Origin: Candidatus Endomicrobiellum cryptotermitis
GTDB lineage: Bacteria; Elusimicrobiota; Endomicrobiia; Endomicrobiales; Endomicrobiaceae
Assembly: GCA_031257835.1 (NCBI GenBank)
Contig: JAIRNY010000027.1
Location: 1 to 41,880, forward strand
DNA length: 41,880 nt
Direction: 5' to 3'
How positions within the stretch are numbered: the stretch's first letter is position 1; the number at the start of each line of letters is the position of its first letter. Below are positions 31,111 to 41,251 of this stretch, in pieces. Under the pieces are notes generated by a model. It saw nothing but the letters and a program-made list of their open reading frames with translations, ran no database searches and had not been told where the DNA came from. A program made the translations under genes and the position numbers.

Positions 31111-31659
31111 ATGCAGATTAATATTACTGCTAGACACCTAAAGTTAACAGATGCTATTGATTCTTATGTACGCAAGAAAGTTTTAAAATTTGATAAGTTA
31201 TATGATGGAGCTAATAATGTTTATTCGCATGTAATCCTCTCAGTAGAAAAGAATAGACAAATAACAGAAATAATTTTTCATATAGGAAAAATTTCATTTA
31301 GAGCAAAAGACCAATCAGAAGATTTATACGCATCAATAGACTTAGCCTCAGATAAGCTTGAAAAACAACTTAAAAAACATAAAGAAATTTCAAAAGATCA
31401 TAGAAAGGAATCCTCAAAAGAATACACGACTTTAGAAGAAGTTTTTTCTTATGATGTTATGAACGACTCTAGGACAAAAATTGCCGAGATAAAACGTTTT
31501 GATTTAAAACCTGTAAGCTTAGAAGAAGCTATTGATGAAATGGATAATCTAGGATATAGAGTTTATATGTTTAAAGATGGCCAAAAAGATAAAATATGTG
31601 TGCTTTATAGGAATGATGGTGGTTCAATAGTGCTTTTAGAACCTAATGAAAAAATGTAG
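31111..31659 (+). CDS. hpf: Ribosome hibernation promoting factor, long form
   Basis: Long HPF dimerises 70S ribosomes to 100S in slow growth. The 182-residue protein has an N-terminal S30AE domain (MQINITARHLKLTDAIDSYV to the lysine-rich helix at about 85-100) and a C-terminal dimerisation domain with KRFDLKPVSLEEAIDEMDNLGYRVYMFKD and VLYRNDGGSIVLLEP. Proteobacterial neighbours of ptsN usually carry the short form of about 95 residues, so the long form here is notable. AAAAGGAGAAG precedes the ATG at 31111. Confidence 0.94.
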   Translation: MQINITARHLKLTDAIDSYVRKKVLKFDKLYDGANNVYSHVILSVEKNRQITEIIFHIGKISFRAKDQSEDLYASIDLASDKLEKQLKKHKEISKDHRKESSKEYTTLEEVFSYDVMNDSRTKIAEIKRFDLKPVSLEEAIDEMDNLGYRVYMFKDGQKDKICVLYRNDGGSIVLLEPNEKM

Positions 31660-31681: not shown

Positions 31682-32140
31682 ATGAAAATTATGGATTTTT
31701 TGAGTCAAAATGAAATTATTGTTGGTTTGAATGCAACAGATAAAAAATCAGCGATACTTGAACTAGTAAATGTTTTAGAAAAAACAAAAAAAATCAAAAA
31801 GACTGATGAAATTATAAATGTGGTTTTAGAAAGAGAAAAGCTAGGTTCAACAGGGATTGGACAAGGTGTAGCTATTCCTCATGGCAAAATAGATATACTT
31901 TCAGAACAAATGGGAGTGCTAGGCATATCTCATAAAGGAATAGAGTTTAACTCTTTAGATGGAGAATTAGTGCATATAATTTTTCTTCTATTAGGTCCTC
32001 TGGAAGTGGCTGGGCAACATTTAAAGGCATTATCTAGAATTTCAAGATTATTTAAAGATAAATTTTTGAGGCAAGCTATAAGGGAAGCTAAAACGACAGA
32101 AGACGTTGTAAAAATTATACAGCAAGAGGATATATATTAA
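31682..32140 (+). CDS. ptsN: PTS EIIA-like nitrogen-regulatory protein PtsN
   Basis: PtsN is an EIIA of the fructose/mannitol family used as a phosphorylation-dependent regulator rather than for sugar transport. The 152-residue protein has the active-site region STGIGQGVAIPHGKID with phospho-accepting H67, and the LSRISRLFKDKFLRQAI end is typical. No membrane or EIIB domain is attached. AGGAGAAA precedes the ATG at 31682. It stands between hpf and hprK in an arrangement like the hpf-ptsN-rapZ cluster of Proteobacteria, but without rpoN upstream. Confidence 0.92.
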   Translation: MKIMDFLSQNEIIVGLNATDKKSAILELVNVLEKTKKIKKTDEIINVVLEREKLGSTGIGQGVAIPHGKIDILSEQMGVLGISHKGIEFNSLDGELVHIIFLLLGPLEVAGQHLKALSRISRLFKDKFLRQAIREAKTTEDVVKIIQQEDIY

Positions 32141-32143
32141 AAT

Positions 32144-33076
32144 ATGGATATAAAAACCTTCTTGGCTGAAAAAGCTAAAGATTTTAAACTAGAGCTTTTA
32201 GTAGGTAAAGAGGGGTTAGATAGAAAAATTTTAGTACCTGAGATAAATAGGCCAGGTTTGGCTATTGCTGGTTTTTTCGAACATTTCCCGTATGAACGTA
32301 TACAGATTATTGGTATAATAGAATATACATACTTAAAGCACTTAAGTTATGATCAACAGTTAAATGTTTTAAATAAAATTTTTTCTCATGAAAAGTCTGT
32401 AGGGTGTATTTTAACAAGAGGTTTAGAGCCTACAGAATCAATGTTTAAAACTTTTGCTGATTTAAACGTTCCTTTATTAAGTACAGAATTAAGATCTTCT
32501 CTATTTATGGGAGATTTAGGTTATTATCTGAATGAAAAACTTGCTCCATCGATTAAAATTCATGCTGTTATGACAAATGTTTATGGGCTAGGAGTTTTAA
32601 TTATTGGTAAGGCTGCAATTGGTAAGTCTGAATGCGCTATAGAACTTGTTAAAAGAGGTCATAAATTTGTTGCTGATGATGTTGTAAATATAAGAAAGCG
32701 TTCGGGACGAACTTTAGTAGGCAGAGGGTTAGAGGTTACTAAACACCTTATAGAAATAAGGGGTATAGGAGTAATAGATGTTAAGGATTTGTTTGGTGTT
32801 GGCAATATTTTAGATGAATCTAAAATAGAGCTTGTAATAAGGCTGGAAGAGTGGGAAAGCTCAAAGAAGTATGATAGGGCAGGTTTAGATGAGTCTTTTA
32901 TTGAATATTTAGATGTGAAAATTCCAGAAGTTGTAGTACCTGTGGCACCAGGTCGTAACCTTGCTGTTTTAGTTGAAACTGCAAGTTTAAATCAAAGGAT
33001 TAAAAGTAGAGGTTGTTTTACTGCTAGAGATTTAGATGTCAGGTTACAAAAAGAGATAAACAAAAATAATTTATGA
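32144..33076 (+). CDS. hprK: HPr kinase/phosphorylase
   Basis: HprK adds or removes phosphate on the regulatory serine of HPr according to the metabolic state. The 310-residue protein has the N-terminal domain and a C-terminal kinase domain with Walker A GKAAIGKS at 155-162, followed by E163 and RGHKFVADDVV; the upstream H140 is kept. The Walker A differs from the common GxSGIGKS by two alanines but keeps all phosphate-binding positions. A later VVPVAPGRNLAVLVE stretch is also typical. The target serine is present in the nearby ptsH. Its stop overlaps rapZ. Confidence 0.93.
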   Translation: MDIKTFLAEKAKDFKLELLVGKEGLDRKILVPEINRPGLAIAGFFEHFPYERIQIIGIIEYTYLKHLSYDQQLNVLNKIFSHEKSVGCILTRGLEPTESMFKTFADLNVPLLSTELRSSLFMGDLGYYLNEKLAPSIKIHAVMTNVYGLGVLIIGKAAIGKSECAIELVKRGHKFVADDVVNIRKRSGRTLVGRGLEVTKHLIEIRGIGVIDVKDLFGVGNILDESKIELVIRLEEWESSKKYDRAGLDESFIEYLDVKIPEVVVPVAPGRNLAVLVETASLNQRIKSRGCFTARDLDVRLQKEINKNNL

Positions 33077-33930
33077 CTAAATTATATATAATTTCAGGAA
33101 TGTCTGGTGCTGGAAAAAGTCAAACACTTAAGATTTTTGAAGATTTTGGTTTTGAGTGTGTTGATAATATGCCAATTGTAATGTTCCAACCTTTTTTAAA
33201 TATTTATCTTAAGAACAAAAATAAATACAAAAATGTTGCAATTAGTATTGATTCTAGAGCAGGTAAAGATTTATCTCATTTCAAAGAAATTCTAGTTGTT
33301 TTAAAAAATAAAAAAATTAAATATAAAGTTATTTTTTTGAACGCCACTGATAAAGTTTTAATAAGACGTTATTCGGAAACACGCCGCAGACATCCCTTAG
33401 GTAAGTCGGTTTCTTTAGGCATATCTCTTGAAAGAGAAATTGTAAAAGATATTTTTGAGGTTGCAGATGAAGTTATAGACACTTCAATTCTAACTGTAGG
33501 TGAATTAAAAAAAGCTATTTCAGTAATCGCGAAAGTTACCCAATTTGGTAGACAATATTTAAATATATCTGTAGTTTCTTTTGGATATAAATATGGAATT
33601 CCTAATGACGCAGATATTGTCTATGATGTACGCTTTATAACAAATCCAAATTATGTGTACGAGCTAAAATACAAAACAGGCCAAAATAGGGCTGTTAAGG
33701 ACTATATAAAAAAACAAAAAGAATTTAAAGTTTTTTTTAGTATGTTTTCTAAATTGATAGAATTTACCTTGCCATACTATATAAAGGAAGGCAAAAGTTA
33801 CTTAACTATTGCAATTGGTTGTACAGGTGGTAGACATAGATCAGTTTTTATTGCAGAAAAGCTTGCTGATTTTTTTAAAAGTCAAAAATATAAAGTGCAA
33901 CTAAATCATAGAGATATACTTGCAAAGTAG
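33073..33930 (+). CDS. rapZ: RapZ family nucleotide-binding protein
   Basis: RapZ/YvcJ proteins bind nucleotides and, in E. coli, an sRNA controlling amino-sugar synthesis; the role in other phyla is less clear. The 285-residue protein has a P-loop GMSGAGKS at 9-16, then FEDFGFECVDNMP, RRYSETRRRHPL and the C-terminal IAIGCTGGRHRSVFIAEKL, all conserved. Length is normal. The ATG at 33073 overlaps the hprK stop by four bases, so the two are coupled. The hprK-rapZ-EIIA order is known from several Gram-negative groups. Confidence 0.93.
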   Translation: MTKLYIISGMSGAGKSQTLKIFEDFGFECVDNMPIVMFQPFLNIYLKNKNKYKNVAISIDSRAGKDLSHFKEILVVLKNKKIKYKVIFLNATDKVLIRRYSETRRRHPLGKSVSLGISLEREIVKDIFEVADEVIDTSILTVGELKKAISVIAKVTQFGRQYLNISVVSFGYKYGIPNDADIVYDVRFITNPNYVYELKYKTGQNRAVKDYIKKQKEFKVFFSMFSKLIEFTLPYYIKEGKSYLTIAIGCTGGRHRSVFIAEKLADFFKSQKYKVQLNHRDILAK

Positions 33931-33967
33931 ATAATAGACGGTTACCTCTTCCTTGGGAGACTAATTT

Positions 33968-34375
33968 ATGGTTAAAATTTTTATAGCAGCACATGGTAAC
34001 TTGGCTAATTCTTTAATTAATTCTGTAGAACTTATAGTTGGCAAGCAGAAAAATCTTTATGCTATTTCTAACGAAAAAAGTGATAGTCTAACACACTTAC
34101 AATATAAAATAAAAACCCTTTTAAGCAATGTAATAGATCAAGATGGTGTTTTAATACTTACAGACATGATGGGTGGCAGTCCAAACAATGCTTCCCTTAG
34201 AATGCTTGATGATTTTAAAGTTGAAATTATTTCAGGTGTAAATCTTCCTATGTTATTATCTGCTATTTCTGCAATTAAAAACTCTCAAGATATTTCACAA
34301 TTGGCTGATAAAGTTTTTACTGAAGGGCAAAAAAGCATAATTAATATTAGAAAGGCTTTGTTTGAGAAAAAATAG
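33968..34375 (+). CDS. PTS mannose-family EIIA component
   Basis: This cytoplasmic protein takes phosphate from HPr on a histidine (H9 in AAHGNLA) and passes it to EIIB. The 135-residue sequence has ILTDMMGGSPNNASL, the family signature. Unlike E. coli ManX it is a stand-alone domain. In many Gram-negative bacteria a lone EIIA-Man is only regulatory, but here EIIB, EIIC and EIID follow, so it probably serves sugar uptake. GGGAG lies about 12 bases before the ATG at 33968. The substrate cannot be told from sequence. Confidence 0.92.
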   Translation: MVKIFIAAHGNLANSLINSVELIVGKQKNLYAISNEKSDSLTHLQYKIKTLLSNVIDQDGVLILTDMMGGSPNNASLRMLDDFKVEIISGVNLPMLLSAISAIKNSQDISQLADKVFTEGQKSIINIRKALFEKK

Positions 34376-34396
34376 TATGTTAAGTGAGGAAAGATA

Positions 34397-34903
34397 GTGC
34401 CTATATCTCTTGTAAGAATAGATGATAGACTTGTTCATGGTCAGGTAGTTCAAGGTTGGCTTAAAGCAATTTCTGTGGATATTCTTTTGGTGGCTTCAGA
34501 TATTGCAGCTGAAGACAAAATGCAAAAACTGCTTATGGAAATGGCTGTTCCAAGCGATATCAAACTTGAAGTAAAGAGTCTGCAAGATGCAGTTGCGGTT
34601 TTAAAAGTGGTTAATTGTAAATATAATATTATGGTTTTAGTTGCAAGCCCAAAAGAAGCTTTCTATATACTGGAACAAGGTGTGAGATTTAATTCTTTAA
34701 ATATTGGAGGCATGCACTTTTTTAGTGAAAAAAGACAAATTTTAAGTAATGTTTGTGCTGATGATAACGATATTAAATTTTTATATAGAATTTATCAGAA
34801 AGGCATTGAGTTAGAGTCGAGGGTTTTGCCAGGAGATGAAAGGTTAAACATTATTCCCTTGATAGAAAAAGAATATTTAGCTTTACCAGAGGTGAAAAAA
34901 TGA
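34397..34903 (+). CDS. PTS mannose-family EIIB component (GTG start)
   Basis: EIIB receives phosphate from EIIA on H14 (in RIDDRLVHGQV) and passes it to sugar moving through EIIC/EIID. The 168-residue protein is of normal length; SVDILLVASDIAAEDKMQK and NIGGMHF match the family. It starts with GTG at 34397, supported by GAGGAAAG about six bases upstream. Its end overlaps the GH57 gene by four bases (ATGA), so glucan enzyme and PTS component are translationally linked. Confidence 0.93.
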   Translation: MPISLVRIDDRLVHGQVVQGWLKAISVDILLVASDIAAEDKMQKLLMEMAVPSDIKLEVKSLQDAVAVLKVVNCKYNIMVLVASPKEAFYILEQGVRFNSLNIGGMHFFSEKRQILSNVCADDNDIKFLYRIYQKGIELESRVLPGDERLNIIPLIEKEYLALPEVKK

Positions 34904-36987
34904 GTAAAGTTAAATTTATTTTTTGTACACATAATCACCAACCGGTTGGTAATTTTGGTTGGGTTTTTGAAAAAGCTTATCAATTAGCATATAAACCATT
35001 TTTAGATGTTTTATCTAAACACAGTGACATAAAATGGAATTTGCATTTAAGTGGAATTCTCTGGGAGTATTTAGAAAGGGAACACAAAGACTATGTTAAG
35101 ATTGTTCAAAATTTTGTTGATAAGGGAAAGATAGAAATATTATCTGGAGGTTATTTTGAACCTATAATGTCTTCTGTTCCAGATAAAGATAAACTTGGAC
35201 AAATAGAGAAGTTAACGAAATATTTAAAAAGTAAATTTGGAAAATCTCAGGCAAATGGCATGTGGCTTGCAGAAAAAGTATGGGAACCTTCTATGGCAAA
35301 AGTTTTTGCCCAGGCTGGTATGAAATATACGGTTGTAGATGATTGCCATTTTGTAAATGCAGGTTTTGATGTCGATAAATTAAATGGTTATTATACGACA
35401 GAAGAAGATGGGTATAAATTAGATATATTTCCTATAAGTCAAAAGATGAGATATTTAATTCCTTTTTCTAATGTAGAAGATACGGTTGAATATTTTAGAT
35501 ATTTGATACAAAAGAGTCCAGTAGAAGACCCTATCATTATTATGGCAGATGACGGTGAGAAGTTTGGCATGTGGCCTAGTACATATAAACATGTTTATGA
35601 GAATAAATGGCTGCATGCTTTTTTGACTGCATTAGAAAATAATTCAGATATTGTAGAGACTGTAACTTTTAGTGAGATTCTAAAATTAAGAGACTCTTCT
35701 CAAAGGGTATATTTGCCATGCTCGTCTTACTTTGAAATGTCTCAATGGGCATTGCCATTTGAGCTGCAAGAGAATTTTGAAAATGTTTTAAATAGAAATA
35801 CTTGTGATATTGAAACAATAAAGTTTTTAAGAGGAGGGTTTTGGAGAAATTTTCTTGTAAAATATGAAGAGTCAAATAATATGCATAAAAAAATGCTCTA
35901 TATAAGTGGTAAAGTGGAATGTTTAAAAGATGATGATAAGAAAGCTTTTAAACAAGCTAAGGATTTTTTGTATGCTGGACAATGCAATTGTGCATATTGG
36001 CATGGAGTTTTTGGAGGTATTTATCTTCCTCATTTGAGGAATGCTGTTTATAATAACATTATAAAAGCTGAAAACTGTTGTAATAAGTCTATGTTTAAAA
36101 AATCTTCTTGGAATATTTTTGATATAAATTGTGACGGTCAAGACGAGTACTTGTATGAAGGTAAAACACAAAACATTTATATGTCTGCATATTCTGGAGG
36201 CTCAATTTTTGAGTGGGATATTTTTAAAATCAGTTACAATTTATTGGACGTGCTTACAAGACGATATGAACCTTACCATAAAAGGTTAAAAGAAAATATT
36301 GATAAAGCTGTAATAGCAAATGATAATTCATTAGAAGTACAAAGTATACACAATGATTCTATAAAAGTTAAAGAATTCGGGCTAGATAAATATCTTGTAT
36401 ATGATAATTATAAAAGAGCCTCTTTAATTGATCACTTTTTTTCATGTGATATAGAGTATGATTCTTGTGTGTTTGGCAATTATGAAGAAAAAGGTGATTT
36501 TGTGTCTGGCAAATATGAAGTGAAATTAGTTGATGTGAGAAAATTTTTAAAAAAGCAAGCAAAACTTAGTTTGTGTCGTTATGGTAGTGTTTGTGGAAAA
36601 AATGTTAAGCTCGTTAAAGAAATTTTCCCATTGACAAATGGCTATCATGTAGACTATTCCATAAAAAATAATTTTAGTGATAATTTAGAGATTTGTTTTT
36701 CTCCAGAACAAATGTTTGCCTTTTCTTCAAAAACAAGAGATGATGTAGGAAGTTTAAAAAATGTTGAAATTTGGAAAAGATACGATGATTATCTAAAAAT
36801 AGAAATAGAGCTTAAATTATCTGAAAAATGTGATTTGTTTGTTTATCCAGTTGAAACTGTTATCAATTCTGATAATGGCTATGAACGGACATATCAAGGA
36901 ACAGCTGTGATGCCATTAGTTAAATGTAATATAGAATCTGGCAAAGAAAAGAAATTTTCTATGGAGACAATTGTAAATTTTAGATAA
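34900..36987 (+). CDS. GH57 alpha-glucan enzyme (4-alpha-glucanotransferase/amylase type)
   Basis: The 695-residue protein is a glycoside hydrolase family 57 member of the 4-alpha-glucanotransferase kind, acting on alpha-1,4-glucans in the cytoplasm (no signal peptide). Landmarks are HNHQP at 11-15, GGYFEPIM at 83-90, the nucleophile E125 in WLAEKVWEP, and the acid/base D217 in MADDGEKFG. A helical DUF1925-like part (about 290-390) and a beta-rich DUF1926-like C-terminal domain (about 410-690) follow. Transferase or amylase activity cannot be told apart by eye. It lies between EIIB and EIIC and overlaps EIIB, an unusual place for such a gene. Confidence 0.88.
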   Translation: MSKVKFIFCTHNHQPVGNFGWVFEKAYQLAYKPFLDVLSKHSDIKWNLHLSGILWEYLEREHKDYVKIVQNFVDKGKIEILSGGYFEPIMSSVPDKDKLGQIEKLTKYLKSKFGKSQANGMWLAEKVWEPSMAKVFAQAGMKYTVVDDCHFVNAGFDVDKLNGYYTTEEDGYKLDIFPISQKMRYLIPFSNVEDTVEYFRYLIQKSPVEDPIIIMADDGEKFGMWPSTYKHVYENKWLHAFLTALENNSDIVETVTFSEILKLRDSSQRVYLPCSSYFEMSQWALPFELQENFENVLNRNTCDIETIKFLRGGFWRNFLVKYEESNNMHKKMLYISGKVECLKDDDKKAFKQAKDFLYAGQCNCAYWHGVFGGIYLPHLRNAVYNNIIKAENCCNKSMFKKSSWNIFDINCDGQDEYLYEGKTQNIYMSAYSGGSIFEWDIFKISYNLLDVLTRRYEPYHKRLKENIDKAVIANDNSLEVQSIHNDSIKVKEFGLDKYLVYDNYKRASLIDHFFSCDIEYDSCVFGNYEEKGDFVSGKYEVKLVDVRKFLKKQAKLSLCRYGSVCGKNVKLVKEIFPLTNGYHVDYSIKNNFSDNLEICFSPEQMFAFSSKTRDDVGSLKNVEIWKRYDDYLKIEIELKLSEKCDLFVYPVETVINSDNGYERTYQGTAVMPLVKCNIESGKEKKFSMETIVNFR

Positions 36988-37001
36988 GGTTTAGGTGGCC
37001 T

Positions 37002-37643
37002 ATGACAGAAAGTATATTTTTTTACGCTTTAATAGGTTCATTTTGTAGTATGGACATAACTGCTTTTGGGCAGTTTATGATTTGTCGTCCTATATTTTGT
37101 GCTCCTATTGTTGGTTATTTTATGGGAGATGTTAATAGTGGGCTTTGGATAGGCATGATTGTAGAGTTACTTTGGGTAAATGCTATTCCAATGGGAGTAA
37201 TAGTACCAGTTGATGTTTCATTGATAAGCATTTTATCTACTTTTTGGGTATGCAAATATTTTCTTGGAGTACAGGAAGCAGCGGTTTTTTCTTTAGTTTT
37301 AGCTATTCCTTTTGCGTATTTTTATAGAGACATGGATATATCTGGGCGAAATTTTAACACTAAAATTATGCATTTTGTTGAAGATGGTATAAAAAACCAA
37401 AAATATTGGCGTATGTATGCAGGTATATATGTAGGACTTTTTCTTTTTGCATTAAGACTTTTTTTGTTTTATTTGTTTGCTATGTATGTTGGAGGTTTAA
37501 TATATTCTGGCCTTTATTTACAGCTATCTCAATTTATTATTTTGGGTTTAAGAAATGCTTGGTATTTGCTACCTATAATTGGTTTTGCTTTAGTTATAAA
37601 AGAGTTTAATATTTTTAGAAGATTGTTTTTAAAGGAACGTTAA
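37002..37643 (+). CDS. PTS mannose-family EIIC component
   Basis: EIIC is one of two membrane proteins forming the mannose-type sugar channel. The 213-residue protein has about six hydrophobic segments and the family features GQFMICRPIFCAPIVGYFMGD, LWIGMIVELLWVNAIPMGVIVPVD and GLRNAWYLLPIIGF. It is shorter than ManY (about 265), with the loss mostly in the central region, as in related divergent permeases. AGGTGG precedes the ATG at 37002. EIID follows one base after its stop. Confidence 0.85.
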   Translation: MTESIFFYALIGSFCSMDITAFGQFMICRPIFCAPIVGYFMGDVNSGLWIGMIVELLWVNAIPMGVIVPVDVSLISILSTFWVCKYFLGVQEAAVFSLVLAIPFAYFYRDMDISGRNFNTKIMHFVEDGIKNQKYWRMYAGIYVGLFLFALRLFLFYLFAMYVGGLIYSGLYLQLSQFIILGLRNAWYLLPIIGFALVIKEFNIFRRLFLKER

Positions 37644-37644
37644 G

Positions 37645-38424
37645 ATGATTAAAGTATATATAAAAATGTTTGTGAGGTCTTTTTTCTTGCAGGCGTTATG
37701 GAATTTTGAAAGAATGCAAAACATAGGTTTTGTTTATATTTTAAAACCATTTTTAGATAAAGTGTATCTAGATGAAAAATCTAAGCAAGAGGCTTTAATG
37801 AGACATATAGGCTATTTTAATACTCACCCATATATGGCAAATTTACTTTTTGCTATAGTGGCAAACTTAGAAAAAGGAAAAAGTGAAAATAAAGAAAATT
37901 TCCTTGACATAAGTGTTATTAAAAATCAAATGGCAGGTCCACTAGCAGCAATTGGCGACCCTTTATTTTTTGGTTCGCTAAGGCCTTTAGTAGCTTGTTT
38001 TAGTATTTTAGTTATGTTGCTGTTTATGAAATTTTTAGATCAGAATTTTCAAGAGTATGCAATTTTTGTGCCGATTATTTTTATTGTTGGCTATAATGTT
38101 TTTCATATTGTTTCTAGATGTTGGCTTATGTTTATAGGTTTTAAGTTTGGACAAGATAGTTTTTCTGTCATCTCAAATACTAAAACTTTAATGCCTATAA
38201 TAAAATATGCTGTATTTATTGTTACTGCAGTTACGTTATTTGTATACCTATTAATTTTTAAATCTAGTCCTATAAGCAACTTGTTTTTTGGAATCAAAGA
38301 AAACGACTTGGCTTTATATATAATAGCTTTTTTGTTTTCAATAATTTTTAGTAGATTGGGAGTAGTTTTTTTACTTTACAGCATAATAATAATATGTTCT
38401 TTAGTATCTTACTTAAGGATTTAA
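37645..38424 (+). CDS. PTS mannose-family EIID component
   Basis: EIID completes the mannose-type permease in the inner membrane. The 259-residue sequence shows the signature LWNFERMQNIGFVYILKPFL, RHIGYFNTHPYMANLLFAIVANLE and MAGPLAAIGDPLFFGSLRPL, then hydrophobic helices in the C-terminal third. It is close to the normal length of 270-300. AAAGGAACG precedes the ATG at 37645, one base after EIIC. EIIA, EIIB, EIIC and EIID are thus all present in one run. Confidence 0.9.
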   Translation: MIKVYIKMFVRSFFLQALWNFERMQNIGFVYILKPFLDKVYLDEKSKQEALMRHIGYFNTHPYMANLLFAIVANLEKGKSENKENFLDISVIKNQMAGPLAAIGDPLFFGSLRPLVACFSILVMLLFMKFLDQNFQEYAIFVPIIFIVGYNVFHIVSRCWLMFIGFKFGQDSFSVISNTKTLMPIIKYAVFIVTAVTLFVYLLIFKSSPISNLFFGIKENDLALYIIAFLFSIIFSRLGVVFLLYSIIIICSLVSYLRI

Positions 38425-38427
38425 AAG

Positions 38428-38694
38428 ATGAAAGAAAAGATTATAATTGTTTCTAATAAGATGGGTTTACATGCAAGACCTGCAGCTATGCTTGTGCAAA
38501 CTGCAAGTAAGTATAAATCTTCTGTGAAAATTATAAAAGATGACTTCGTCGATATAGATGCAAAAAGTATTATGGGAATTATGTCTTTAGCTGCAAGGCA
38601 AGGAAGTCAGTTGAAATTTATCGCAGATGGTCCAGACGAAAACGAAGTTTTAACTGAACTTGAGAGTTTGTTTAAGTCTAATTTTAGTGAATAA
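38428..38694 (+). CDS. ptsH: PTS phosphocarrier protein HPr
   Basis: HPr carries phosphate from EI to the EIIA proteins. The 88-residue protein has the active-site MGLHARPAA with H15 and the regulatory serine S47 in AKSIMGIMSLAA, equivalent to S46 of Bacillus HPr. Presence of this serine and of hprK in the same run supports serine phosphorylation as a control. AAGGAT lies upstream of the ATG at 38428. It is three bases after EIID and twelve before ptsI. Confidence 0.95.
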   Translation: MKEKIIIVSNKMGLHARPAAMLVQTASKYKSSVKIIKDDFVDIDAKSIMGIMSLAARQGSQLKFIADGPDENEVLTELESLFKSNFSE

Positions 38695-38705: not shown

Positions 38706-40445
38706 ATGTCAAAATCGAATAATATCATCTTAAAAGGAGTTGCTGCATCCGCAGGTGTAGTCATAGGGAAAGCATTTCTTTTAGATGAAGATGAACTTTG
38801 TCTAATTTATAAAGAAATTCCTAAGAATGAAAGAGCAAGTGAAAAAAAACGTCTTGATGCTGCAGTTGAGAAAACAAGACAAGAACTTAAAGAAATTTAT
38901 AATAAAATTAATGATGTTTTGGGTGAAAATTATGCTCATATAGCAGACGCTCATATTTTGATTTTAGATGATCCAACTATGAGAAAAGATGTTTATAAAC
39001 TTATAGAAGATGGCACTAATGCAGAATATGCCATATTTAAAGTAATAGATAAGATTGTTCGTTCTTTTGAATCGATTAAAGATGATTATTTTAAAGAAAG
39101 AAAAGTTGACGTACAGGAAGTTGGTAAAAAAATTTTGGCAAATTTGTTGGGCAAACAAGAAAAGAGTCTTATAAATTTAAAAAAAAGTTCTATAGTAGTT
39201 GCTCATAATTTGACGCCTGCAGATACTGTTACAATAAGGGAAAAACTAATTAAAGGTTTTGTTATTGATATTGGTGGAAAAACTTCTCATACTGCTATCA
39301 TGGCACAAGGGCTTGGAATACCTGCAGTGGTTGGTTTAAAAGTTGCATCTTCTCAAATAAAAACAGGAGACACAATAATACTAGACGGAAATGTTGGTGA
39401 AATAATATTAAATCCGTCTGCAGAAATATTAGAAAAATATCAAAAAGATTATGATAGGCAATATGAAGAGATCAAAGAGTTAAGAAAATTAAAAAATTTA
39501 AGTATTGAAACGATAGACAAGCACAGTGCTTTGATTTTTGCAAATATTGATAACTCTGGCGAAGTGTCAACTGCTTTAAATAATGGAGCAATAGGTATAG
39601 GTCTTTACAGGACAGAATTTATGTATTTTAATCGTAATGCTATGCCATCTGAGCAGGATCATTTTGAAGAATATGCTAAAGTTGTAAAAGAAATGTCGCA
39701 GTATCCTACAACTATAAGGACAGTAGATTTAGGCGGAGATAAATTTACAAAGCTCGGACTATTAAAGCTTGGACAAGAACAAAATCCATTTTTAGGGTTG
39801 AGAGCGATAAGGTTATGTCTTAAATATCCTGATATTTTTATTTCTCAATTAAAAGGTATTTTAAGAGCGTCTGTTTTTGGTAAGGTAAGACTCATGTATC
39901 CTATGATATCAGGTATTGATGAGCTTAGAGCCGCAAACAAAATACTTCAAAGTGTTAAGCAAGAATTAAGAAAAAAGGATGTAAGTTTTGACGAAAACAT
40001 GGAAGTAGGCGCAATGATAGAAATACCTTCTGCGGCTGTTATTATGGACGTTATAGCTAAAGAAGTAGACTTCGTTTCAATAGGTACTAATGATTTGATA
40101 CAATATACTCTAGCAGTTGATAGAGTAAACGAAAACGTTGCAAATATTTATGATCCTAAACATCCAGCAGTTTTAAGACTTATTAAACAGATTATAGATA
40201 GTGCTCATAAAGGAAAAATAGAGGTTGGCATTTGTGGCGAAATGGCTGGAGATCCACTCTATACAGCTGTTCTTTTAGGTTTTGGACTTGATGAATTTAG
40301 TGTATCGGCATCACAAATTCTTAAAATAAAAAAAGTTATACGTAGCGTATCTTTTAAAGAAGTAAAAGAGATATCAGATAAAATTCTACAATGCGGGGAC
40401 AAAGAATCTATTTTAAAAATAATGAGTAGGATACAAGTGCATTAG
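38706..40445 (+). CDS. ptsI: PTS enzyme I (phosphoenolpyruvate-protein phosphotransferase)
   Basis: EI takes phosphate from phosphoenolpyruvate and gives it to HPr, starting the relay. The 579-residue protein has the HPr-binding N-terminal domain, the phospho-histidine domain with GGKTSHTAIMAQGLGIPAV (H195), and a C-terminal PEP-binding barrel with GIGLYRTEFMY, FLGLRAIRL, IGTNDLIQYTLAVDR and the active-site cysteine in GICGEMAGDP. Length is normal. GAGGAAATA precedes the ATG at 38706. It closes the intact part of the run. Confidence 0.96.
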   Translation: MSKSNNIILKGVAASAGVVIGKAFLLDEDELCLIYKEIPKNERASEKKRLDAAVEKTRQELKEIYNKINDVLGENYAHIADAHILILDDPTMRKDVYKLIEDGTNAEYAIFKVIDKIVRSFESIKDDYFKERKVDVQEVGKKILANLLGKQEKSLINLKKSSIVVAHNLTPADTVTIREKLIKGFVIDIGGKTSHTAIMAQGLGIPAVVGLKVASSQIKTGDTIILDGNVGEIILNPSAEILEKYQKDYDRQYEEIKELRKLKNLSIETIDKHSALIFANIDNSGEVSTALNNGAIGIGLYRTEFMYFNRNAMPSEQDHFEEYAKVVKEMSQYPTTIRTVDLGGDKFTKLGLLKLGQEQNPFLGLRAIRLCLKYPDIFISQLKGILRASVFGKVRLMYPMISGIDELRAANKILQSVKQELRKKDVSFDENMEVGAMIEIPSAAVIMDVIAKEVDFVSIGTNDLIQYTLAVDRVNENVANIYDPKHPAVLRLIKQIIDSAHKGKIEVGICGEMAGDPLYTAVLLGFGLDEFSVSASQILKIKKVIRSVSFKEVKEISDKILQCGDKESILKIMSRIQVH

Positions 40446-40657: not shown

Positions 40658-41251
40658 ATGCTCTCATGTGAAAAGTATGAGGTACGTACGGGATATTTAA
40701 ATCGTTGGAACTATATGCCAAAACGTTTAGAAATGTGCTCTCAGGATGAAATAGAAAAATCTATTAATAAAGGTAAAGAGGAAGAAGCTGAGTGGATTAG
40801 TAGATGTCAGCCAGATTTTCCAGAATTTATAAAAAAAGATTGGCAAGATTGTATATCTAAACAAAAAAACCCGTACTACCAGAGCTGTAAAAGTCTTGTT
40901 ATTAAAAAGATAAATACTGATAATGTCTTTTCTAGTGCTTTTGCTAAAAGTGTTGATGAATTTTTGTCTACCCATAATAATATAGACAGATTAAACTGTA
41001 ATTCATATGTTTTGGAAGAAACTTCATGGATACTCACACTTCCATTATTGCATTTAAATAAGCCTATATACTTACTGCATATAGGAAGTGCTAATAGCGC
41101 TGTTGTGGCAATGTTCCATCATTTTCCAAATCTTCAAAAAGGAGTAAAGTGGTTAGCTCCTCGTTTTAGCGTAAGGAAGTTTGAAAATGGTTCTGAATTT
41201 ATATTAGATTATAGAAATTGGTTTGCATACTGGATATTCATATGCGATTGA
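40658..41251 (+). pseudogene. Middle piece of the broken sensor gene, unidentified domain
   Basis: This 197-codon stretch starts at an ATG without a ribosome site and ends at a TGA at 41249-41251. The domain is not securely known to me. Its second half (FSSAFAKSVDEFL, then CNSYVLEETSW and PIYLLHIGSANSAV) resembles the C-terminal part of tRNA-dependent cyclodipeptide synthases, where a Y..xE-type motif follows a similar helix, but the N-terminal catalytic-serine region is not visible, so that is a weak suggestion. Dropping one A from the AAA at 41215-41217 continues the reading frame into the PAS kinase piece as DYRIGLHTGYSYAIENKE. Confidence 0.5.

Follow-up and report, generated by a model that had tools for sequence, protein, structure and literature searches.

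ManXYZ of E. coli is a mannose-family sugar phosphotransferase system (PTS), and the family is represented among known structures (PDB 6k1h/7dyr). In the same organism, the genes for HPr and glycogen phosphorylase are unlinked. HPr regulates the E. coli glycogen phosphorylase (PMC11046441), and this is the PTS control of glycogen that we found described. A third point of comparison is the 4-alpha-glucanotransferase of Thermococcus litoralis (PDB 1k1w), a GH57 enzyme. Here, we describe a 41,880-nucleotide stretch of DNA from Candidatus Endomicrobiellum cryptotermitis (hereafter, the window), in which a predicted 4-alpha-glucanotransferase-type GH57 gene (34900..36987, + strand) lies inside a mannose-type PTS gene cluster. 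The window is part of contig C23 of a 1.05 Mb genome (G000; 28 contigs, 87% complete). A probable storage-glucan enzyme is thus built into a PTS operon, and it is so phylum-wide; from the gene order, these bacteria may run their sugar supply jointly with their energy storage.

The locus shares with mannose-family PTSs the EIIA, EIIB, EIIC and EIID families and their phosphorylation-site histidines. All four components, as the first-pass annotation of this DNA had claimed with correct coordinates, were recovered by open reading frames (ORFs) and Pfam: EIIA (33968..34375, +; PF03610, 4.1e-23), EIIB of the sorbose/mannose subfamily (34397..34903, +, GTG start; PF03830, 8e-42; PDB 1ble, 6.8e-26), EIIC (37002..37643, +; PF03609, 3e-26) and EIID (37645..38424, +; PF03613, 4e-38; PDB 7xtg, 2e-25). 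The histidines are in place at the presumed phosphorylation sites of EIIA (His9) and EIIB (His14), and across the phylum they are kept in 84/84 EIIA sequences from EII-bearing loci and 85/85 EIIB sequences. The locus differs from the known systems in that a glucan enzyme sits between EIIB and EIIC and in that the PTS genes are joined to HprK, RapZ, HPr and EI. The same-strand run, read from ORFs and Pfam, is HPF-PtsN-HprK-RapZ-EIIA-EIIB-GH57-EIIC-EIID-HPr-EI, and the full unit therefore exceeds the span first reported (33968-38424), with four genes before it and two after. As originally noted, the GH57 gene overlaps EIIB by 4 bp: the ATGA at 34900-34903 is common to the EIIB end and the GH57 start, and a Shine-Dalgarno-like AGAGGTGA (34888..34895, +) lies inside EIIB upstream of that start. 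EIIC is also unusual: at 213 residues it falls some 50 short of the 7dyr chain (266 residues), aligning with residues 23-199 of 7dyr, and the best match stops at residue 199/266. This short form is general in the phylum (median 213 residues over 88 ORFs), and we class it as a short variant because the Pfam family (PF03609) is matched and length does not define the family.

The GH57 protein (695 residues) has the architecture PF03065+PF09094+PF09095, i.e. the catalytic, middle and C-terminal glucanotransferase domains, all over cut-off, and it matches 1k1w across residues 1-673 (E = 1.4e-127), which settles its fold; an NCBIfam search returned no match for it. Pfam and the 1k1w match agree with the initial call of a 4-alpha-glucanotransferase/amylase-type enzyme. 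Glu125 and Asp218 of the window protein align with Glu123 and Asp214 of 1k1w, which we take to be the catalytic pair of that enzyme. The GH57 pair consists of a Glu nucleophile and an Asp proton donor (PMC6037648). Of the 104 phylum rows, 100 carry each residue and four have a gap in those columns; both residues are present in all 64 GH57 rows not titled Elusimicrobiota. The acceptor-site aromatics of a Pyrococcus GH57 enzyme are Tyr181, Phe185, Trp219 and Tyr270 (PMC9582752). Window residues Tyr185, Phe189, Trp225 and Tyr277 align with Tyr183, Phe187, Trp221 and Tyr272 of 1k1w and presumably correspond to them, a correspondence drawn through 1k1w rather than through an alignment of the Pyrococcus sequence itself. 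The closest named relative among the matches listed is from Candidatus Endomicrobiellum incisitermitis (93% identity), which points to a termite-gut Elusimicrobiota endosymbiont of this type as the source. Ratios of nonsynonymous to synonymous substitution (dN/dS) were 0.10-0.22 in five comparisons with relatives, and the gene is, by these sequence measures, intact and under purifying selection; these ratios and the intact catalytic positions ruled out a degenerate gene. The enzyme thus resembles that of T. litoralis in near full-length homology and in its catalytic positions, and differs in being encoded in a PTS operon of a termite-gut bacterium, where its activity is predicted. The window's genome also holds a second, distinct GH57 gene, which is broken into a 226-residue and a 260-residue ORF and looks decayed (C6:26066-27323; L146:5914-7354, - strand).

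The arrangement extends far beyond this genome. In a panel of 59 relatives searched with the window protein at 1e-20, 33 had a GH57 match, 30 of them full length; the partial ones were cut by a contig edge (G023), contained stops (G020) or were a fragment (G005). In a survey of 340 phylum genomes with a GH57 profile (A1, cut-off 1e-100), 102 genomes carried the gene in 104 places. We examined the flanks of every one of these places (100 longer stretches and four short loci), naming genes by in-house hidden Markov models grown from the window proteins, and all 104 had at least one adjoining cluster gene. The upstream neighbor was EIIB in 80 cases, a branching-type GH57 in 10, EIIA in six, PtsN and RapZ in one each and a contig edge in six, and the downstream neighbor was EIIC in 88, HPr in 11 and a contig edge in five. 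The exact 4-bp overlap with EIIB is not general (16/80, using longest-ORF starts). In 20 chosen loci lacking GH57, EIIB was followed by EIIC in every case, with gaps of up to 170 bp. The complete order is present on contig C1 of G303 (L175), and the cultured Endomicrobium proavitum seems to have it as well. Conservation of the order in related genomes, which the first-pass annotation had proposed to check, therefore holds across the phylum and rules out a recent or local insertion limited to this genome. With a cluster neighbor at all 104 places and the low dN/dS, the placement of GH57 is, as judged from these genomes, more than chance.

The presence of GH57 within the window's genus follows that of the glycogen genes. 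Full-length GH57 was found in nine of the 35 genus genomes; the genome with the contig-edge copy (G023) was counted as lacking it, and decayed copies were counted as absent (synthase in G013 and G018, branching enzyme in G018 and EIID in G006, G018 and G027). Intact glycogen synthase was present in 8/9 GH57-positive genomes and 0/26 others, as was branching enzyme (counting a split copy in G026), while phosphorylase was present in 7/9 and 1/26, the one being G023. For intact EIID, the figures were 9/9 and 9/26. When the count is confined to the 12 genus genomes with a completeness of 90% or more, the figures are 6/6 versus 0/6 for every one of the glycogen genes and 6/6 versus 3/6 for EIID. 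G013 and G005 retain remnants of GH57 between EIIB and EIIC; G020 has one next to EIIC, at a locus that ends short of EIIB. A tree built from 19 loci of the genus plus two outgroups, with several weak branches, requires three changes to explain the pattern, or five losses without regain. The retention of synthase, branching enzyme and phosphorylase with GH57 points to the glycogen genes having been lost as a set in this genus, with GH57 apparently lost along with them. It also suggests an order of loss in the sugar economy of these endosymbionts, since the glycogen genes are gone as a set in genus genomes that still keep the importer.

The usual bacterial 4-alpha-glucanotransferases belong to another family, GH77 (PMC9582752). 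In the 59-genome panel, GH77 matches with E <1e-100 occurred only in G055 and G058, which belong to one genus, lack GH57, have EIIB adjoining EIIC and retain synthase, branching-enzyme and phosphorylase matches. That a stand-alone GH77 is confined to two sister genomes without GH57 weakly supports a role for the latter in a glucan store.

The cluster also persists where no permease was detected. In 12 genomes (13 loci; G048, G056, G063, G065, G066, G067, G069, G333, G334, G335, G338 and G339), GH57 lies in the cluster with no EIIB, EIIC or EIID in the stretch read. It adjoins HPr-EI in 11 of the 12; in G067, the contig ends after GH57. A genome-wide permease search covered PF03609, PF03613 and PF02378, with EIIB (PF03830) and other permease families outside its scope. 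PF03609 (EIIC) was found in none of the 12, the window genome being positive in the same search; PF02378 was found in none of them and in 0/14 genomes searched overall; and PF03613 (EIID) was absent except for one match (9.5e-4) in G338. Two of these genomes (G067 and G069) are only 80-81% complete. Wherever the gene was seen in these 13 loci, the relay residues were almost always kept: HPr His 11/11, HPr Ser 11/11, EI His 11/11, HprK P-loop Lys 10/10 and EIIA His 6/7. As far as these loci show, the partners that stay with GH57 in such lineages are HPr and EI, not the permease, so that GH57 may be linked to the phosphorelay and not to transport. It becomes testable whether PTSs without a permease govern carbon storage. 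A described system with clustered HprK, EIIA(Man)-like and NPr genes and no permease (PMC2937029) resembles these clusters; it is tied to a two-component system, whereas those of the Elusimicrobiota are tied to glucan enzymes.

Further glycogen-type genes occur in the cluster, in lineages with a permease and in those without one: the stretches read include DUF4912 at 7/104 loci and a branching-type GH57 at 12/104. As confirmed by Pfam, L173 has DUF4912 along with a pair of GH57+BE_C proteins, and L162 and L195 have a single GH57+BE_C protein each. In the window's genome, a GH57 branching enzyme (PF03065+PF09210) adjoins a DUF4912 protein on contig C20 (L145:5381-7654, - strand), away from the PTS; in some other lineages, this pair of genes is in the PTS cluster.

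Outside the phylum, the linkage is found in a minority of loci. We scanned named genomes and examined the best 80 of 575 confirmed GH57 loci, 16 of which (L065-L080) are titled Elusimicrobiota and 64 are not; record titles of such assemblies may be wrong. The full order EIIA-EIIB-GH57-EIIC-EIID-HPr was present in five of the 64 (L111, FCPU426; L127, unplaced; L134, Firestonebacteria; L136, labeled Clostridia; L143, Mcinerneyibacteriota); in L136, a methyltransferase gene separates GH57 from EIIC. GH57-HPr-EI occurred in four (L104 and L120, Hydrogenedentota; L131, Muiribacterium; L140, Nitrospiraceae), and HprK, an MlaD-like gene and then GH57 in three (L099, L109 and L121: two Zixibacteria and one record labeled Bacteroides). 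A GH57 tree of 104 rows placed 40 Elusimicrobiota rows on one side of a branch with support 95. The five full-order foreign loci do not group on it: four changes are needed, of which the starred branches force only one. These loci may reflect ancient inheritance with losses, repeated assembly or one transfer of the entire unit from phylum to phylum. Of the 52 foreign loci without PTS linkage, 9 have glycogen synthase or branching enzyme/DUF4912 near GH57. Two EI-like hits (L108 and L112) were rejected as EI because they carry PPDK_N and are PPDK-like.

We consider it likely that GH57 is the cell's 4-alpha-glucanotransferase for glycogen and maltodextrins, encoded in one operon with the PTS. 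A storage-glucan enzyme would then be made together with a sugar importer and the sensing parts of the PTS (EI, HPr, HprK and EIIA), presumably from one transcript and with GH57 translation coupled to that of EIIB where the two overlap at ATGA. The PTS would bring in glucose as glucose 6-phosphate: a mannose-type PTS with this product is described for Endomicrobia (PMC11257099), and in E. proavitum, which reportedly grows on glucose and not on mannose or fructose, glucose is the likely PTS sugar (PMC8809381). GH57 would recycle short maltodextrins into chains usable by synthase and phosphorylase. The Pyrococcus GH57 4-alpha-glucanotransferase acts on maltotetraose and longer and seldom frees glucose (PMC9582752), a preference that would suit short-glucan recycling between those two enzymes. 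The phosphorylation state of the PTS would set the timing, via expression and possibly via a PTS protein binding GH57, as suggested by the gene order and by the E. coli precedent. In that precedent, a PTS protein sets storage-glucan metabolism (PMC11046441), and we propose the same here by analogy; the enzyme there is a phosphorylase, whereas here it is a glucanotransferase and the link is read from gene order.

The first-pass annotation had suggested that imported sugar phosphate and a glycogen-like store are controlled together. As a statement about gene organization, this stands. Its sugar-import half is incomplete, as 12 genomes have a PTS cluster with GH57 but no detected permease. The glycogen-like store itself gains support from the retention of GH57 with synthase, branching enzyme and phosphorylase and from the branching-type GH57 in 12/104 clusters. 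A bolder proposal, which we regard as tentative and rather doubtful, is a direct action of PTS proteins (EIIB, EIIA or HPr) on GH57, and on branching enzyme where present, according to phosphorylation state. This would be a dedicated PTS-glycogen control unit of ancient origin, with remnants in several candidate phyla and with alpha-glucan metabolism as the main PTS output in permease-less lineages. If true, a permease-less PTS would be a phosphorelay that reads the phosphoenolpyruvate/pyruvate state and sets carbon storage while moving no sugar. The protein families and the type of control (PTS control of glycogen) are known; the phylum-wide gene unit in which they are combined appears to be undescribed. 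We found no description of GH57 within a PTS operon in the titles and abstract starts of the literature searched, which left most subscription journals out of reach, and the Endomicrobia genome paper, which treats the PTS, uses the word "glycogen" 0 times in its main text (PMC11257099).

It is common for the enzymes that process a sugar to be encoded next to the PTS that imports it. The PTS might therefore import an alpha-glucoside or maltodextrin, with GH57 processing the import and serving uptake rather than storage, and the adjacency of GH57 to EIIB (80/104) and EIIC (88/104) fits such an operon. We judge this quite unlikely, given the 12 genomes that keep GH57 in the cluster with neither EIIC, EIID (save the marginal match) nor PF02378, and beside HPr-EI in 11, and given that GH57 goes missing along with the glycogen genes while EIID stays. 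A characterized GH57 4-alpha-glucanotransferase also shows no preference for maltose or maltotriose (PMC9582752), and the suggested PTS sugar of E. proavitum is glucose (PMC8809381). Alternatively, GH57 may have been trapped in an ancestral cluster and then inherited vertically, held there by the usefulness of the cluster, its position meaning nothing for regulation. The 40 Elusimicrobiota sequences on one side of a supported branch are compatible with a single ancestral placement, and the neighboring genes are fixed to a similar degree. Such an accident is improbable in our view, since it does not account for the other glycogen-type genes in the same cluster (DUF4912 and branching-type GH57), for GH57 beside HPr-EI where no permease was detected and in four foreign loci, or for the full order in five foreign loci, which the tree does not bring together. 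It is likewise unlikely that the enzyme is an alpha-amylase or other alpha-glucan enzyme. The family covers many specificities (PMC6037648), and we saw no reported activity for this clade, whose assignment is drawn from sequence. The three-domain architecture, the near full-length 1k1w match and the retained aromatics, taken as the acceptor-site residues of the Pyrococcus enzyme, all argue for a 4-alpha-glucanotransferase, and the founding Dictyoglomus and Pyrococcus GH57 "alpha-amylases" are now classed as such (PMC6037648).

Several observations weigh against a storage enzyme coupled to the PTS. Genes of a cluster that rearranges slowly can stay side by side through inheritance, with no functional tie between them. 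GH57 is dispensable for the PTS, as EIID (PF03613) is present in 276/340 phylum genomes versus 102 with GH57, and 9/26 genus genomes without GH57 keep the permease. The genus counts are non-independent, reducing to the three changes or five losses on a weakly branched tree. The window's own genome has no phosphorylase match, although its 99%-complete sister G030 has one, and the gene may have been lost or left unassembled at 87% completeness. The GH77 argument draws on just two genomes, both from the same genus; no member of the window's genus has GH77, and one panel genome (G052) has neither GH57 nor GH77. Three GH57-positive genomes (G036, G046 and G051) show partial GH77 matches over cut-off in ORFs of 3236-3676 residues. 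Lastly, in 52/64 foreign loci, several of them on short contigs, GH57 has no PTS gene in its vicinity, and EI was over cut-off elsewhere in 32 of the 50 genomes tested among them; a universal linkage of this GH57 to the PTS is rejected on these counts. As an observation in its own right, two of the very long ORFs (3236 residues in G046:C16 and 3502 in G051:C35) carry partial matches to both GH77 and phosphorylase.

The remaining genes of the run are all on the + strand. At its upstream end is a gene for an HPF-like (S30AE) ribosome hibernation factor (31111..31659; PF02482, 3.9e-21, and PF16321), which has the same position in relatives. It is followed by a PtsN-like EIIA (31682..32140; PTS_EIIA_2, PF00359, 5.1e-35), presumably the type known by the name "Ntr", by the HPr(Ser) kinase/phosphorylase HprK with its P-loop lysine conserved (32144..33076; TIGR00679, 6e-103; PF07475/PF02603) and by RapZ (33073..33930; NF003828, 3.7e-98; PF22740/PF03668). 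Downstream of EIID are HPr (38428..38694; PF00381, 1.7e-30), with His15 and with Ser47 at the presumed regulatory site, and the phosphoenolpyruvate-protein phosphotransferase EI (38706..40445; TIGR01417, 2.3e-187), with His195. Packing is tight, with spacers of 14 bp for GH57-EIIC, 1 for EIIC-EIID, 3 for EIID-HPr and 11 for HPr-EI. No + strand terminator-like site lies between genes from EIIA to EI; two sit within the GH57 and EIIC coding sequences. The terminator scan (8 sites vs 4.0 +/- 1.9 in shuffles) and the promoter scan (86 vs 74.4 +/- 8.0) were uninformative.

After EI, a 197-residue ORF (40658-41251) had no Pfam or NCBIfam match at E 0.001. The space between RapZ and EIIA in the window (33931-33967) holds no YvcK-like gene. 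Such a gene (CofD family, PF01933) is present in 41/104 phylum loci, some of which are short of flank, and it lies mostly between RapZ and EIIA (e.g. L067:6131-7069).

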